A stretch of DNA of 27,760 bases. Origin: a virus. The notes under the pieces were generated by a model that saw nothing but the letters and a program-made list of their open reading frames with translations, had not been told where the DNA came from and ran no database searches. The position numbers and the translations under genes were made by a program. The stretch spans positions 1 to 27,760 of IMG/VR virus record IMGVR_UViG_3300027784_000026; one strand, written 5' to 3'. Below are positions 19,518 through 25,680 of this stretch, one piece after another; the stretch's first letter is position 1, and every line of letters begins with the position of its first letter.

Positions 19518-22500
19518 ATGAAAGTAATAAAACGAAATGGTCAAAAAGCTAATTACAATAAAAATAAAATAGTAAATGCAGTATTAAGTGCAATGGAAGA
19601 AACTAGAAGTGATAGTTTTGAAGATTTATATGAAACCTCTGTTCATATTGCTGACCTTGTAGAACAAGAAATAACAGATGGGGTTGATGTAGAAACTATA
19701 CAGGATGTAGTAGAAACTAAATTAATGGAACAAGGGTACCACCAAACAGCCAAGGCATATATTTTATATAGAAAAGAAAGGGAAGATAAGAGAGGAAGAT
19801 GGTTAGATAATGGACTTCCTTTTGATATATGGCAAAGAAAATATCAATTTGAAAATGAAAGTTTTGAAGAGTTTTTTACTAGGGTTGCTAAAGACAACAC
19901 CAATATAAAGAAAAAGATAAGAAATAAAGAATTTAGCCCTGCGGGTAGAATATTGGCTAATAGAGGTTTACATAATGAAGGTCAAAGAATAAGTTTAAGT
20001 AATTGTTATGTGCTTAAACAACCAGATGACTCTTTAGAATCAATATTTGATACCGCTAAATATATGGCAAGGACATATTCAGTTGGGGGTGGTTGTGGGG
20101 TAAGTATGGACAACCTTCGACCTAGAGGTGCTAAAGTTAATAACGCAGCCAAGACTACCACAGGTTCTGTATCTTTTATGGACTTATATAATATGACCAG
20201 CAGGATTATTGGGCAGAAAAAGAGAAGAGGGGCTTTGATGATTGCCCTTAGTGATTCTCACCCCGACCTAGAGGAGTTTATTGAGTTAAAGACAAATTTA
20301 GATAGAATAAATACTGCTAACACCTCAATTAAAATTAGTGATGATTTTATGAACGCTGTTAAGGATAATCAAAACTGGACACTAGAGTTTGATGTAGAAG
20401 ATACAGGGGAACATATAGAAAAGACCAAAGATGCTGACCGATTAATAAATAAAATAGCTTATGCTAATTGGTTAGGCGCAGAGCCAGGGGCATTGTTTTG
20501 GACTACAATCAGTAACTGGTGTATTCCTTCTGAAGATGATGAATTTGAATATGCAGGAACTAACCCCTGTGCTGAAGAGCCCCTGCCTGAGTTTGGAAGT
20601 TGTTTAACTGGCGATACAAACATTCTCACGCCCCAAGGGGTAAGAAGGATTGATAGTTTAAATGAAGATTATGTTTTTAGTACAGATGATAAAATGCGAG
20701 AATATTTAAAAGTAAAAGAAAAAGGTATACAGGATGTATTTGAATTAAAATTAGAAAATGGATTAAAACTTGAGGCAACTGATGACCATATGATAAAAAC
20801 AAAAAACAATGGAATGGTAGAAATTAAAGGTCTAACTTCTAATCATAAAATTAAGGTGTTAAAAGATTATCCACTTACTCAATATGGCAACTATGACAAA
20901 AAGTATGAAATGTTTGGGTGGATGCATGGTGATGGTTGGTATACCGATAATTCTATTGGAATAAGCTTCAATTACCCTGATGGAGATGAAGAAGTAAAAT
21001 CAAGGTTGTTGCCAATTTTTAAAGAAGTGTTTAATGTCAAAGAACGTCCCCCTTTAAAAGATGATGAAGTATCTTATCAGTTACAAACAAATAAAAATTT
21101 TGATTTTGAAAAATGTAAAGAATTAGGGTTTGTAAAAGCTACTGCTATTGATAAAGAACTACCAGTCACTTTTTATGATTGGACATTACAACAACAAATA
21201 TCATTTATAAGAGGATTATTTAGTGCTGATGCAGGTATTACAGGAAAATCAAATGCTCAAGTGTCTTTTGTTACATCTAGTATACAATTAGCAAATCAAG
21301 TACAAAAATTCTTAGCTAGTTTGGGTATCCATACTAGATTTTATGAAAATAGATTTTACACTGAAGATAGAAATCCTCAATATAAAATTGTTGTAACTAA
21401 AGAATCAGCTAATATTTATATGAAAACAATAGGATTGATTCCAAAAGTAAAAATAGATAAATTTAATGAATCTAATTATAAAGATAATCAATATTTAGAT
21501 ATTGATTCTATTAAATATAAAGGTGAAGAAATAGTTTATGATATAGTTGAAGTTTATGATACTAATACATTTTATGCAAATGGTATTGCAGTTCATAACT
21601 GTAATTTGTCTAGTATTAATCTTTCTGAATTTGTAACTAAGCCCTATACTAAAGATGCTAATTTTGATATGGCTAAGTTCACCCGAACAGCCAGAGAAGG
21701 TATAACCTTTTTAAACGAAGTGTTAGAGGAAGGTAAAGACCTCCACCCTCTGGAACAACAGAGAAAGACTGTAGAGGAATGGTTACCAGTAGGGCTAGGT
21801 ATATTTGGATTAGGTTCAATGTTGTTAAAAATGGGCATAAGATATGGTAGTCAGGAATCACTGACTTTCTGTGACCATTTAGGTTTTACTTTACTTAATG
21901 CTGCTTTACAACAGTCAGCTTTATTAGCAAAAGAAAAAGGGACTTATCCTAAGTATAAAGAAGATGCTGTACTGGCTAGTCCTTTTTTACACAATAATAC
22001 CACTAAAGAAACAATGGAATTAATTAAAAAATATGGTTTAAGAAACTCTGCTGTTTTATCTATTGCCCCTACTGGAACTATCAGTAATTTATATCAAGTT
22101 AGTGGAGGTATAGAACCTCTCTTTAAAACAAGCTATACCCGGAAAACAGAATCTCTACACGATGAACAACAGGAATACACAATATTTGATAATACAGTAA
22201 AAGAATTAATGGATAAACAGAACATAACTAATGAAAAAGATTTACCCGGCTATGTGGTAGATGCTCATAACTTAGATTATAAAGAAAGAATACAAATGCA
22301 ATCAGTATGGCAACAGTATATAGATGCATCTATTAGTTCTACTATTAATTTACCTAATTCTGCTACTGTTCGAGATATTAAAGACCTATATATGTATGCT
22401 TGGGAGAGCGGTTTAAAGGGTGTAACTATCTATAGAGATGGTTGTGCTAGAGAAGGTATCTTACAAGGGGAGGAAAATGGCACTAAAAAAGAGATGACCG

Positions 22501-22610
22501 ACCAAGACTGGATAGACCAGAATATATGTCCTGAGTGTCATATTACTCTAGATATGACTGGTGGTTGTAAAGAATGCCCAGAGTGTGCTTTTGAATTATG
22601 TGAAGTGTAA
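19518..22610 (+). CDS. nrdJ: Class II (B12-dependent) ribonucleotide reductase with intein
   Basis: It reduces ribonucleotides to deoxyribonucleotides with adenosylcobalamin as radical source. An ATP-cone lies at 1-90 (MKVIKRNGQKANYNKNKIVN). LSNCYVL (Cys163) is the first redox Cys, NPCAEEPLPEFGS (Cys351) carries the thiyl-radical Cys, and CNLSSINL supplies the second redox Cys 11 residues later in the spliced protein. The C terminus has the zinc-type tail ICPECHITLDMTGGCKECPE characteristic of NrdJ. The 1030-aa precursor contains a 333-aa intein (362-694), leaving a 697-aa enzyme. Class II enzymes work without oxygen, in keeping with an anaerobic host. The SD is CTAGGAGGGGTTCA. No small subunit gene is present, as expected for this class. 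Confidence 0.92.
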   Translation: MKVIKRNGQKANYNKNKIVNAVLSAMEETRSDSFEDLYETSVHIADLVEQEITDGVDVETIQDVVETKLMEQGYHQTAKAYILYRKEREDKRGRWLDNGLPFDIWQRKYQFENESFEEFFTRVAKDNTNIKKKIRNKEFSPAGRILANRGLHNEGQRISLSNCYVLKQPDDSLESIFDTAKYMARTYSVGGGCGVSMDNLRPRGAKVNNAAKTTTGSVSFMDLYNMTSRIIGQKKRRGALMIALSDSHPDLEEFIELKTNLDRINTANTSIKISDDFMNAVKDNQNWTLEFDVEDTGEHIEKTKDADRLINKIAYANWLGAEPGALFWTTISNWCIPSEDDEFEYAGTNPCAEEPLPEFGSCLTGDTNILTPQGVRRIDSLNEDYVFSTDDKMREYLKVKEKGIQDVFELKLENGLKLEATDDHMIKTKNNGMVEIKGLTSNHKIKVLKDYPLTQYGNYDKKYEMFGWMHGDGWYTDNSIGISFNYPDGDEEVKSRLLPIFKEVFNVKERPPLKDDEVSYQLQTNKNFDFEKCKELGFVKATAIDKELPVTFYDWTLQQQISFIRGLFSADAGITGKSNAQVSFVTSSIQLANQVQKFLASLGIHTRFYENRFYTEDRNPQYKIVVTKESANIYMKTIGLIPKVKIDKFNESNYKDNQYLDIDSIKYKGEEIVYDIVEVYDTNTFYANGIAVHNCNLSSINLSEFVTKPYTKDANFDMAKFTRTAREGITFLNEVLEEGKDLHPLEQQRKTVEEWLPVGLGIFGLGSMLLKMGIRYGSQESLTFCDHLGFTLLNAALQQSALLAKEKGTYPKYKEDAVLASPFLHNNTTKETMELIKKYGLRNSAVLSIAPTGTISNLYQVSGGIEPLFKTSYTRKTESLHDEQQEYTIFDNTVKELMDKQNITNEKDLPGYVVDAHNLDYKERIQMQSVWQQYIDASISSTINLPNSATVRDIKDLYMYAWESGLKGVTIYRDGCAREGILQGEENGTKKEMTDQDWIDQNICPECHITLDMTGGCKECPECAFELCEV
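20601..21599 (+). mobile_element. LAGLIDADG intein in ribonucleotide reductase
   Basis: The intein starts at Cys (CLTGDTNILTPQG, splicing block A) and ends with TFYANGIAVHN, giving the penultimate His and terminal Asn, followed by extein Cys. It is 333 residues long. A block B TxxH is seen in EATDDHMIKT. Two LAGLIDADG-type motifs are present: MFGWMHGDGW at intein residues 104-113 and IRGLFSADAG at 203-212, both with the catalytic Asp, so the homing endonuclease looks intact. Splicing signals also look complete. It sits exactly before the redox-active Cys of the reductase, so unspliced protein must be inactive. Its DNA is more AT-rich than the extein by eye. Confidence 0.93.
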
Positions 22611-23762: not shown

Positions 23763-24386
23763 ATGGAGAATAATAATAGGAAGTTTTGGTTAGGGAAAGA
23801 AAAGAGTCAGATGGTAAACATTAATGATTTCTTATGGGGATTCTTAATTGGTGTTCTTCTTACTGCAATCTTTATGGGCGTCGCTGTTTCTGGAGAGGGA
23901 GTAGATAAAATAAATGAAATTGAGCAATTAATTAGAACGGTGAGTCCCGATGTTGAAAGAGTTCGAGAGAAAGCAACTGCATTCTATTTTGTAGCTGAAG
24001 AATTTCCTGTATGTCGAAGGACTCTTTTAGCTATTGCGGTTCAAGAAACGAGGTTTAGACATAATTTAAAAGGAGCAGATGGAGAAGTTGGAATGATGCA
24101 AATAATGCCGGACACTGCGAGGATGTTTGATAAAAGTGCTGATTTGAATGACATTAGAACTAATGTAAGAATTGCAGCTCAGTATCTTTCATTCTCGTAT
24201 GATGTAGTCTCCTATTTCTATTCTGACTGGAGGATTATTTATGAGGTAGGATTGACTTCTTATAATCGAGGGCATGGGATAGTTAGAACTGAACTCTATG
24301 ATGGAATGAATCCAAGGAATGGGTATGAAAAGGAGGTTTTAAATATTAGATGGAAGATTTTAAGGGGAAAGTGGGGGGATATTTAA
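23763..24386 (+). CDS. Membrane-anchored lytic transglycosylase (SLT domain)
   Basis: SLT enzymes cleave the glycan strands of peptidoglycan. A cytoplasmic N terminus is followed by one TM helix at about 23-43 (FLWGFLIGVLLTAIFMGVAV), then a periplasm- or wall-facing SLT domain. RRTLLAIAVQETRFRHN contains the catalytic Glu95, GADGEVGMMQIMPDTA (104-119) is the conserved GxxGLMQIMP-like motif, and TSYNRG (165-170) is the final SLT motif. The product is 207 aa. The SD is AAAGGAGAAAAAA. It may be the endolysin, a signal-anchor type needing no holin for export, or a wall-opening enzyme. It is convergent with the - strand holin genes. Confidence 0.85.
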   Translation: MENNNRKFWLGKEKSQMVNINDFLWGFLIGVLLTAIFMGVAVSGEGVDKINEIEQLIRTVSPDVERVREKATAFYFVAEEFPVCRRTLLAIAVQETRFRHNLKGADGEVGMMQIMPDTARMFDKSADLNDIRTNVRIAAQYLSFSYDVVSYFYSDWRIIYEVGLTSYNRGHGIVRTELYDGMNPRNGYEKEVLNIRWKILRGKWGDI

Positions 24387-24396
24387 GCTCTCCCCC
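24374..24396. terminator. GGGGGA/TCCCCC stem between convergent genes
   Basis: GGGGGA (24374-24379) and TCCCCC (24391-24396) form a 6-bp G+C-rich stem around an 11-base loop that includes the transglycosylase stop. It lies where the + strand operon meets the - strand operon, the place for a two-way terminator. No T tract follows on either strand, which weakens the call. Confidence 0.35.
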
Positions 24397-24433
24397 TATA
24401 CATCGCATTTTAAACCCCAGAAATCGGATTTAG
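24394..24433 (-). repeat. 40-bp near-perfect direct repeat, copy A
   Basis: Positions 24394-24433 match 25449-25488 at 37 of 40 bases; the three differences lie at repeat positions 19, 21 and 22. Read on the - strand, each copy starts with the stop codon of a reading frame (CTAAATCCGATTTCTGGG...). This copy ends the coiled-coil lysis gene. The two copies bracket both - strand lysis genes. Confidence 0.85.
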
Positions 24434-24840
24434 AAAAGTGCTGCATAAGCTAGAAGAGCTGTAAATACTAACATGAGTATTGCAGCAGCCGCTCCACCCC
24501 AATCTCTTATTCTATCCCAGAAGGTTCTATTTGCATGTCTCTGCTGTTCAATGTCTGAGAGTCTACCGTCGATATCAGCCAAAGTCTCAGCAATTTTTTT
24601 ATTACGCTTATAAATAGCATCTATATCTCCGGCGTTTTCTGACTGTTGGTTTTTTAACTCTTTTAATTGATTTGTTGCGTCCTGTAAGTTGTTTTTGAAT
24701 CCAGCTAAATCTGCTTTAATATTATTATGCTTAATGAATAAAGTTTCTAAATCATTGATTGACTCCTTTAGACTCTCGATTCGACGAAATAATTCCTCTG
24801 TACTTATTTCAATGTCTCTTTCATATTCTTGTTTGTCTAT
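24430..24840 (-). CDS. XhlA-like lysis protein (coiled coil + C-terminal TM), ATA start
   Basis: The 136-residue product has long charged helices (EELFRRIESLKESINDLETL, DAIYKRNKKIAETLADIDGR) and one C-terminal membrane helix (GGAAAAILMLVFTALLAYAA) after a WDRIRDW amphipathic turn. This is the layout of XhlA/hemolysin-type proteins that work with phage holins. No ATG, GTG or TTG exists in frame before the coiled coil; an in-frame TAA closes it upstream. The only fitting start is ATA at 24840-24838, 7 bases behind a perfect AGGAGGTG (24853-24846), reading ATA-GAC-AAA-CAA-GAA. An ATA start is rare but the SD fit is ideal. The stop lies in repeat copy A. It follows the holin-like gene and is probably co-transcribed with it. 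Confidence 0.7.
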   Translation of the reverse strand: MDKQEYERDIEISTEELFRRIESLKESINDLETLFIKHNNIKADLAGFKNNLQDATNQLKELKNQQSENAGDIDAIYKRNKKIAETLADIDGRLSDIEQQRHANRTFWDRIRDWGGAAAAILMLVFTALLAYAALF

Positions 24841-24899
24841 AAAATCACCTCCTGTAAAACCCGTGGGGGAGGGGCATTACGTATTTTCATATTTTGAAA

Positions 24900-25175
24900 T
24901 TATGGGTTTTCTTTTTCCCTTAACCGATTCTTTGTTCGGTTCCATTCACGATCAAAGTTTTCTTCATCTCCATATTCTATCCCTTCGATTTCTATTTCCT
25001 CAGGAATTTCTACAGGTTTTCCTCCTACATGTAGGTTAAAGACTCCCCCTTTATCAGTTTTAATCATTCCAAAGTGCATATATTTATCCAGGAGCTCCAG
25101 TTCGTATTCTGTTATACTTAAATCCTTTGCAACTTTCTCGAGAATCTTGAATAAAACTTGATTAATCTTTATTGC
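24900..25175 (-). CDS. -1 frame extension of the holin-like gene (91 aa)
   Basis: The -1 frame relative to the holin-like gene is open from just after a TGA at 25190-25188 to TAA 24902-24900. From the slip point it reads AIKINQVLFKILEKVAKDLS and on through LHVGGKPVEIPEEIEI to RLREKENP, clearly protein-like. No ATG, GTG or TTG starts it; the first ATG (25079) would cut off 30 coding-like residues and lacks an SD. The upstream gene carries the heptamer A_AAA_AAG (25181-25175) in the right phase five codons before this frame's first clear sense run, with GAGG (25195-25192) 10 bases upstream, as in E. coli dnaX. Translation by -1 frameshift would give a 180-residue fusion. An unusual start or a chance open frame remain possible. 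Confidence 0.6.
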   Translation of the reverse strand, partial: AIKINQVLFKILEKVAKDLSITEYELELLDKYMHFGMIKTDKGGVFNLHVGGKPVEIPEEIEIEGIEYGDEENFDREWNRTKNRLREKENP

Positions 25176-25441
25176 TTTTTTATTTTCTCATCCTCAAGCA
25201 TGTGTTCTATATCTTCTGTTTCAAAGTCACTGCTATGAAGCATCACAATCAATTTTTCGACGAACACAGGCACATTGATTTCTTCATCCTCGAGTGCTTC
25301 TGCAAGGAACGTAATAATTGTTCTAATGAGTCGTAACCAAATTGATTTTTCTACGAAGTGAGTAACAATAACGGAGACAAGAATTGCAAGCATGTATCCA
25401 AAAAGCTCCGTTTGTACTATTTCAAGTAATAATTCCATCAT
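25169..25441 (-). CDS. Holin-like small membrane protein, 90 aa
   Basis: One N-terminal membrane helix at about 11-30 (TELFGYMLAILVSVIVTHFV) is followed by an amphipathic helix and an acidic C-terminal half with EDEEINVPVFVEKLIVMLHS, the pattern of phage holins of the LLH-type group. It should open the membrane at lysis or act as a holin partner. The SD GGGAGGTG precedes two tandem ATG codons (25441 and 25438). The second has the better 7-base spacing, so the true product may be 89 aa. The end MLEDEKIKKQ includes the slippery A_AAA_AAG two codons before the TAA, pointing to a longer frameshift product. The gene is flanked by the two 40-bp repeats. Confidence 0.7.
   Translation of the reverse strand: MMELLLEIVQTELFGYMLAILVSVIVTHFVEKSIWLRLIRTIITFLAEALEDEEINVPVFVEKLIVMLHSSDFETEDIEHMLEDEKIKKQ
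25175..25195 (-). promoter_or_regulatory. Probable -1 ribosomal frameshift signal
   Basis: Read on the - strand: an SD-like GAGG, then 10 bases, then A_AAA_AAG in the frame of the holin-like gene, followed by CAA and the TAA stop. The heptamer and the upstream SD-like stimulator match the E. coli dnaX arrangement. Downstream pairing is weak (TTCTCGAGAA near 25140 gives only a short stem), so the case rests on the heptamer, the SD spacing and the startless open -1 frame. Confidence 0.6.
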
Positions 25442-25448
25442 TTCACCT

Positions 25449-25488
25449 CCCTATACATCGCATTTTTAGACCCAGAAATCGGATTTAG
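25449..25488 (-). repeat. 40-bp near-perfect direct repeat, copy B
   Basis: This copy matches 24394-24433 at 37 of 40 bases. On the - strand it begins at the stop codon of a startless short frame and runs into the SD region of the holin-like gene (GGGAGGTG). Recombination between copies A and B would remove the whole holin and XhlA-like cassette. Confidence 0.85.
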
Positions 25489-25574
25489 TGCGATTCTTCT
25501 TCAATGAATTGGCCTTTATCATCAATAAGAACCTGTTCGATAGCTAGTTCTACAAGAGCGTCCCTAATGTTTAA
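25485..25574 (-). pseudogene. Short startless frame, probable gene remnant
   Basis: Between TAA at 25577-25575 and TAA at 25487-25485 the - strand reads LNIRDALVELAIEQVLIDDK followed by GQFIEEESH. The composition is that of a real helix-turn-strand peptide, but no ATG, GTG or TTG starts it and no SD precedes the only near-start, an ATT at 25568-25566. It looks like the C-terminal end of a gene cut by the TTAA-rich tract just upstream. A leaderless or ATT-started peptide is less likely. Confidence 0.35.
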
Positions 25575-25589
25575 TTAATTAATTAATTA
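25571..25589. repeat. (TTAA)n palindromic tract with stops in all six frames
   Basis: TTAATTAATTAATTAATTA is a perfect tetranucleotide repeat, identical on both strands, and it contains TAA in every reading frame in both directions. It stands in the gap between the tail gene and the lysis cassette on the - strand, just ahead of the startless remnant at 25485. As a short tandem repeat it may be prone to slippage, but no frame can be opened by changing copy number. Confidence 0.7.
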
Positions 25590-25660
25590 TTTGGTATGGT
25601 TTTACAAACAGAAGTATTTCTTAATTGATTGTCTAAGGTATTCTTTTTTATAATTTTTAT
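25583..25660 (-). CDS. Possible 25-residue peptide with ATA start
   Basis: On the - strand GAGG (25670-25667) is followed after 6 bases by ATA, opening (M)KIIKKNTLDNQLRNTSVCK and TIPNN to TAA 25585-25583 in the TTAA tract. There is no ATG, GTG or TTG in the area. It is listed only because a neighbouring gene seems to use the same SD-plus-ATA arrangement. It may be noise in a decaying stretch. The gap 25442-25680 otherwise holds only repeat copy B, the remnant and the TTAA tract. Confidence 0.2.
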   Translation of the reverse strand: MKIIKKNTLDNQLRNTSVCKTIPNN

Positions 25661-25680
25661 ATATTACCTCTTCTTAGTTA

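Follow-up and report, generated by a model that had tools for sequence, protein, structure and literature searches.

A plausible −1 frameshift site beside a probable AUA start in a phage lysis operon

The lysis operon of this phage contains a junction between two reading frames, and the best single reading of that junction is −1 ribosomal frameshifting at the slippery heptamer A_AAA_AAG, which would join a 90-residue membrane protein (ORF A) to a coding extension in the −1 frame. We favor this reading tentatively and regard the site as a plausible, unproven recoding candidate. The gene that follows, which resembles XhlA, very probably initiates at AUA 24840, given the sequence as it stands, and this AUA start is a firmer result than the frameshift. 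The two features together suggest an operon in which translation itself could set the amounts of the lysis proteins.

Genome context and the lysis operon

The window analyzed, 27,760 bases long, is the whole of one IMG/VR record of an uncultured phage. Its plus strand carries about 38 tightly packed early or replication genes, including those for a family A DNA polymerase, a UvsX-like recombinase, and a ribonucleotide reductase with an intein. The large subunit of the reductase (19518-22610, +) is split by the intein, which has a LAGLIDADG endonuclease domain. The last plus-strand gene (23763-24386, +) encodes a protein that combines a transglycosylase (SLT) domain with a membrane anchor or signal at its N-terminus; it is convergent with the lysis operon and is a possible candidate for the endolysin. 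On the minus strand, the tail protein gene is followed by ORF A, the extension, and the XhlA-like gene (Table 1). A duplex-energy calculation gives Shine-Dalgarno (SD) pairings of −6 kcal/mol or stronger at 36 of the 38 other genes of this phage. The window also contains three overlaps of the ATGA/GTGA type (at 713, 5905, and 17439), all of which retain an SD, with energies of −7 to −11.

Table 1. Features of the lysis operon and its surroundings
Feature	Coordinates	Strand	Remarks
Tail protein gene	27567-25681	−	First minus-strand gene from the right end; the operon follows
40-bp direct repeat, copy 1	25449-25488	−	Directly upstream of ORF A; family D8, 93% identity
ORF A (P0001), 90 aa	25441-25169	−	ATGATG start, strong SD GGGAGGTGA
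SD-like element GAGG (GAGG/AGGA)	25195-25192	−	10 nt 5' of the heptamer
Slippery heptamer A_AAA_AAG	25181-25175	−	Two codons ahead of the ORF A stop
Extension (P0002), 90 codons plus stop	25172-24900	−	Begins with ATA; ATAA overlap with the ORF A stop
AAAGGA, weak SD	25123-25128	−	−5.6 kcal/mol; precedes an in-frame ATA
ATA, alternative start	25113-25115	−	Behind AAAGGA; 71-codon version of the extension
Extended SD AGGAGGTGA	24845-24853	−	7 nt from GGAGG to ATA 24840; −11.6 kcal/mol
XhlA/hemolysin-like gene (P0003)	24840-24430	−	ATA start at 24840; coiled coil and C-terminal membrane helix
40-bp direct repeat, copy 2	24394-24433	−	Begins at the XhlA-like stop codon

ORF A has a hydropathy of about 1.9 around residues 13-31, which predicts one N-terminal hydrophobic helix, and a single-sequence AlphaFold2 model (pLDDT 72) places a long N-terminal helix ahead of three further helices. 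This architecture fits the pattern of small proteins with one to three membrane helices encoded near lysis genes, and ORF A adjoins the XhlA-like gene. An earlier note on this DNA had called the protein a holin. We find no backing for that name in Pfam, PHROGs, or NCBIfam, where ORF A matches no family and in particular no known holin family, or in a fold search, which returned nothing significant. Because family and fold matches are absent, the designation is a positional argument alone, and ORF A is not demonstrably a holin.

Searches for homologues of the ORF A, extension, fusion, XhlA-like, tail, and SLT proteins found none in IMG/VR viral contigs or, for those of the same proteins that were tested elsewhere, in phages, 85k genomes, or plasmids; the tail protein has partial, distant phage matches only. 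Among 80 loci that carry relatives of the ribonucleotide reductase, none contains a relative of the lysis operon. Conservation of the heptamer and frame transition was approached through homologues of ORF A and of the extension in phages, IMG/VR, and the 85k genomes, and none was found.

The operon is flanked by the two copies of the 40-bp direct repeat, each starting where the preceding reading frame ends, at its stop codon. The repeat could be a promoter, a module boundary, or a recombination site. Within the window, the T7-promoter-like core of the repeat, ATGTATAGGG(A/G)G, is confined to these two copies. The 17-nt core had one further match, inside a coding gene in an unrelated phage, which we rejected as a chance hit. 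Directly ahead of ORF A, a segment of 240 nt (25442-25680, −) contains a (TTAA)n run in its middle, and one of its frames reads YKNYKKEYLRQSIKKYFCL*NHTK*LIN*LNIRDALVELAIEQVLIDDKGQFIEEESH*. The last 27 codons of this frame carry a coding signal of 12 bits, but the frame lacks both a start codon and an SD; the segment looks like a small gene that has decayed or is expressed in an unusual way.

The frame junction and its recoding signals

ORF A ends in GAG AAA ATA AAA AAG CAA TAA. The −1 frame opens past a TGA just upstream, starts with the codon at 25187, and closes with a TAA whose last base is 24900, so that the putative fusion of ORF A and extension would be 180 aa long. The extension is coding, with a codon-usage score of 0.38 bits/codon against a median of 0.33 for the genes of this phage; the 2,495 off-frame windows of 90 codons taken from those genes all stay at or below 0.16 bits/codon. 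The chance expectation for 90 open codons is about 3e-4. The earlier description of a long open −1 frame is borne out. A weak structural model of the extension shows two helices, a β hairpin, and a C-terminal helix.

The same description saw no ATG, GTG, or TTG close to where the extension begins. This is correct, the earliest of them being ATG 25079, but the near-cognate codons ATA 25172, ATT 25166, and ATA 25115 are present. Neither ATA has an extended SD at a spacing of 5-9 nt. At ATA 25172, the best pairing reaches −3.6 kcal/mol at a spacing of 17, which leaves it without an SD at usable distance. At ATA 25115, the match extends over 6 nt only, is weaker than the SDs of 36 of the 38 other genes, and is equaled by about 5-7% of random sites; the 19 codons ahead of this ATA are mildly coding, with a density ratio of 2.5.

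The heptamer and the GAGG element lie where the earlier note had placed them, and the heptamer falls in the zero frame, inside the short overlap of both frames. In Escherichia coli, few −1 motifs are more efficient than A_AAA_AAG, and the spacing between GAGG and heptamer is within the 6-17 nt range found stimulatory in that work (PMC4066793). When the encoded peptide HMLEDEKIKKQ is resampled with synonymous codons according to phage codon usage, A_AAA_AAG appears in 8% of the sequences and the heptamer together with an SD-like element in about 1.6%; arbitrary codons are preceded by an SD-like element in 14-16% of cases. The recoding signal is therefore weaker than its appearance and is suggestive rather than strong. 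No stable RNA structure was detected 3' of the heptamer (z = +1.05), nor a hairpin there under the IS3 rules of PMC4066793; an Rfam search gave no match. Some proven cases of −1 frameshifting lack a downstream stem-loop or pseudoknot (PMC4066793).

An AUA start for the XhlA-like gene

A profile search matches residues 39-131 of the P0003 product to PHROG 937, annotated as hemolysin, with E = 3.7e-6; in Pfam the protein stays below any cut-off. Together with the coiled coil and the C-terminal membrane helix (hydropathy 2.4), the PHROG match supports assignment to the XhlA/hemolysin family. In lysis, XhlA and SPP1 gp24.1 cooperate with another holin (PMC6316719); no XhlB-like partner was identified in the window.

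The first ATG, GTG, or TTG of P0003 is TTG 24582 at codon 87, and the 86 codons before it are gene-like, with 0.45 bits/codon. ATA 24840 is preceded by AGGAGGTGA, a perfect Shine-Dalgarno whose duplex is stronger than that of the median gene of this phage. An extended SD within the 5-9 nt spacing range, the absence of standard starts nearby, and the onset of coding character thus coincide at this codon, and initiation at AUA 24840 is very probable. We considered whether AUA has been reassigned to methionine in this phage and rejected the idea, as ATA columns mostly align with isoleucine in homologues, just as ATT and ATC columns do. Since ATA reads as isoleucine inside genes, its role at 24840 would be that of a start codon and not a sign of an altered code. 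The perfect SD placed for this AUA further suggests that near-cognate initiation operates right next to the extension.

Near-cognate AUA and AUU starts with an extended SD function in Staphylococcus aureus at approximately 10-30% of AUG. In Bacillota, AUA starts of this kind give about 10% of AUG expression, with ccpN reaching up to 30% in rich medium, and the AUA start of ccpN is conserved in Bacillus subtilis (PMC13009471). Our scan of 80 related loci (1.33 Mb) for near-cognate starts returned an AUU-started nucleotide kinase (locus L018, 8049, +) and an AUA-started ORF (locus L041, 3769, +), each behind an extended Shine-Dalgarno. These two cases suggest that such starts are under-annotated in phages. 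Gene callers limited to ATG, GTG, and TTG would miss the extension and would call the XhlA-like gene from TTG 24582, losing 86 codons.

Readings of the junction and likeness to known systems

We rank −1 frameshifting first, a one-base indel or assembly error second, and separate AUA initiation third; the weights are our own estimates from coincidence rates and published base rates. For frameshifting speak an extension with gene-like codon usage and no gene-like start, in a phage whose other genes nearly all have good SDs, as well as a heptamer located in the frame overlap behind an SD-like element whose distance has been proven to stimulate slippage in E. coli, a combination with a joint chance of 1.6% given the peptide. 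The unbroken state of the other A/T runs in the contig speaks for it as well. Against it stand the lack of a homologue in the searched databases, the lack of a downstream stem-loop, in-frame AUAs that might start the extension separately, and the further irregularities of the locus, namely the remnant at 25442-25680 and the start of the XhlA-like gene at AUA. Published base rates also count against it, with 33% of orphan frame transitions expected to be gene overlaps and 67% indels or sequencing errors (PMC3711429). Of the earlier proposal, then, the frame transition and the coding extension stand, whereas a stem-loop and a homologue are missing and rival readings persist.

If frameshifting is correct, ORF A and the extension would form one translational unit of the lysis operon. 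Most ribosomes would terminate at the TAA after ...KIKKQ and release the 90-aa membrane protein, and a minority, assisted by pairing of GAGG with 16S rRNA, would slip back one base on A_AAA_AAG to yield the 180-aa product (...KIKKAIKINQVLFK...), whose C-terminal domain would be cytoplasmic. The XhlA-like product would be limited separately by its AUA start behind the extended Shine-Dalgarno, and the ratio of the three products would thus be fixed by translation. We infer the occurrence of slippage, its efficiency, and any role in lysis timing. The full picture, in which a strongly initiated membrane protein, a 180-aa frameshift form, and an AUA-started XhlA-like protein are dosed purely translationally, is possible but on balance doubtful.

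A serious competitor, although we do not think it probable, is that a one-base deletion in the A-run, by mutation or by assembly or sequencing error, split a continuous 180-aa gene. One extra A joins the frames exactly: with seven A's the sequence reads ATA AAA AAA GCA without interruption. The base rates quoted above favor this explanation, as most orphan frame transitions are indels or errors (PMC3711429), and the adjacent 240 nt upstream resemble decayed coding sequence. Against it, the 39 intact genes contain 54 further A/T runs of six or longer, all of them in frame, which argues that indel error is uncommon in this contig. A run of six A's is also short for polymerase slippage, and ORF A by itself begins at a strong start and is predicted to form a compact helical fold.

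Less likely still is that the extension is a separate AUA-started cistron, kept at low expression by its near-cognate start. Initiation could occur at AUA 25172 by termination-reinitiation, as its ATAA is formally an ATGA junction differing by one base, or at AUA 25115 behind AAAGGA, which lies at a workable spacing. Such initiation gains credibility because the neighboring XhlA-like gene clearly pairs AUA with a perfect SD, and because AUA and AUU starts serve in S. aureus, in ccpN of B. subtilis (PMC13009471), and apparently at the two loci found in our scan; an AUA in the −1 frame was also suspected of initiating translation in reporter constructs of the E. coli frameshift study (PMC4066793). 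A start and SD belonging to the extension, which the earlier note had named as grounds for abandoning frameshifting, are thus half present, in the form of ATA 25115 with an SD of only −5.6 kcal/mol. Separate initiation would nevertheless be atypical here, because all but two of the well-supported phage starts have SD energies of at least −6 kcal/mol in strength. AUA 25172 lacks a usable SD, though the three ATGA/GTGA overlaps keep theirs, and AUA 25115 has an SD equaled by about 5-7% of random sites and follows mildly coding codons. Separate initiation would also reduce the heptamer and GAGG to coincidence.

Quite improbable is that the extension is an untranslated remnant or is reached by another route such as transcriptional slippage: relatives are absent and the upstream sequence looks decayed, but the 90-codon frame is fully open with gene-like codon usage, and six A's make a short run for transcriptional slippage.

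Lysis timing requires exact ratios of effector and inhibitor membrane proteins, which known phages achieve by dual starts or separate antiholin genes. Frameshifting and near-cognate initiation, if confirmed, would be an additional means of fixing that ratio. Our literature search, which covered few subscription papers and so does not prove absence, found no holin or holin partner regulated by a frameshift or an AUA start. If the slippage is real, it would place frameshifting of the dnaX/IS3 type in a setting without precedent in the literature searched.

The junction shares with E. coli dnaX, the parallel drawn in the earlier note, its heptamer, an SD-like element at about equal distance, and the −1 direction; however, dnaX has a downstream stem-loop that is absent here, and its frameshift shortens the product, whereas slippage here would lengthen it from 90 to 180 aa. 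A startless −1-frame extension in a phage or mobile-element context is likewise found in IS3-family transposases and the phage tail-chaperone pair G/GT (SPP1 17.5/17.5*, PMC6316719), but the present extension lies beside an XhlA-like gene after a tail gene, is neither transposase nor chaperone, and has no conserved stimulator. Like infC, ccpN, citZ, and cvfC1 of S. aureus (PMC13009471), the XhlA-like gene pairs an extended SD with AUA in the absence of other starts; it differs in being a phage gene. Its coiled coil, C-terminal membrane helix, and position after tail genes recall the two-component holins XhlA/XhlB and SPP1 gp24.1/gp26, although SPP1 regulation uses two in-frame AUG starts (PMC6316719) and ORF A matches no holin family. 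In the MS2 lysis gene (references cited in PMC5009743), a lysis-related frame is reached via termination or slippage in the upstream gene, as proposed here; MS2 is an RNA phage with an overlapping gene, in which ribosomes terminating at the coat gene reinitiate, unlike the slippage that we propose.
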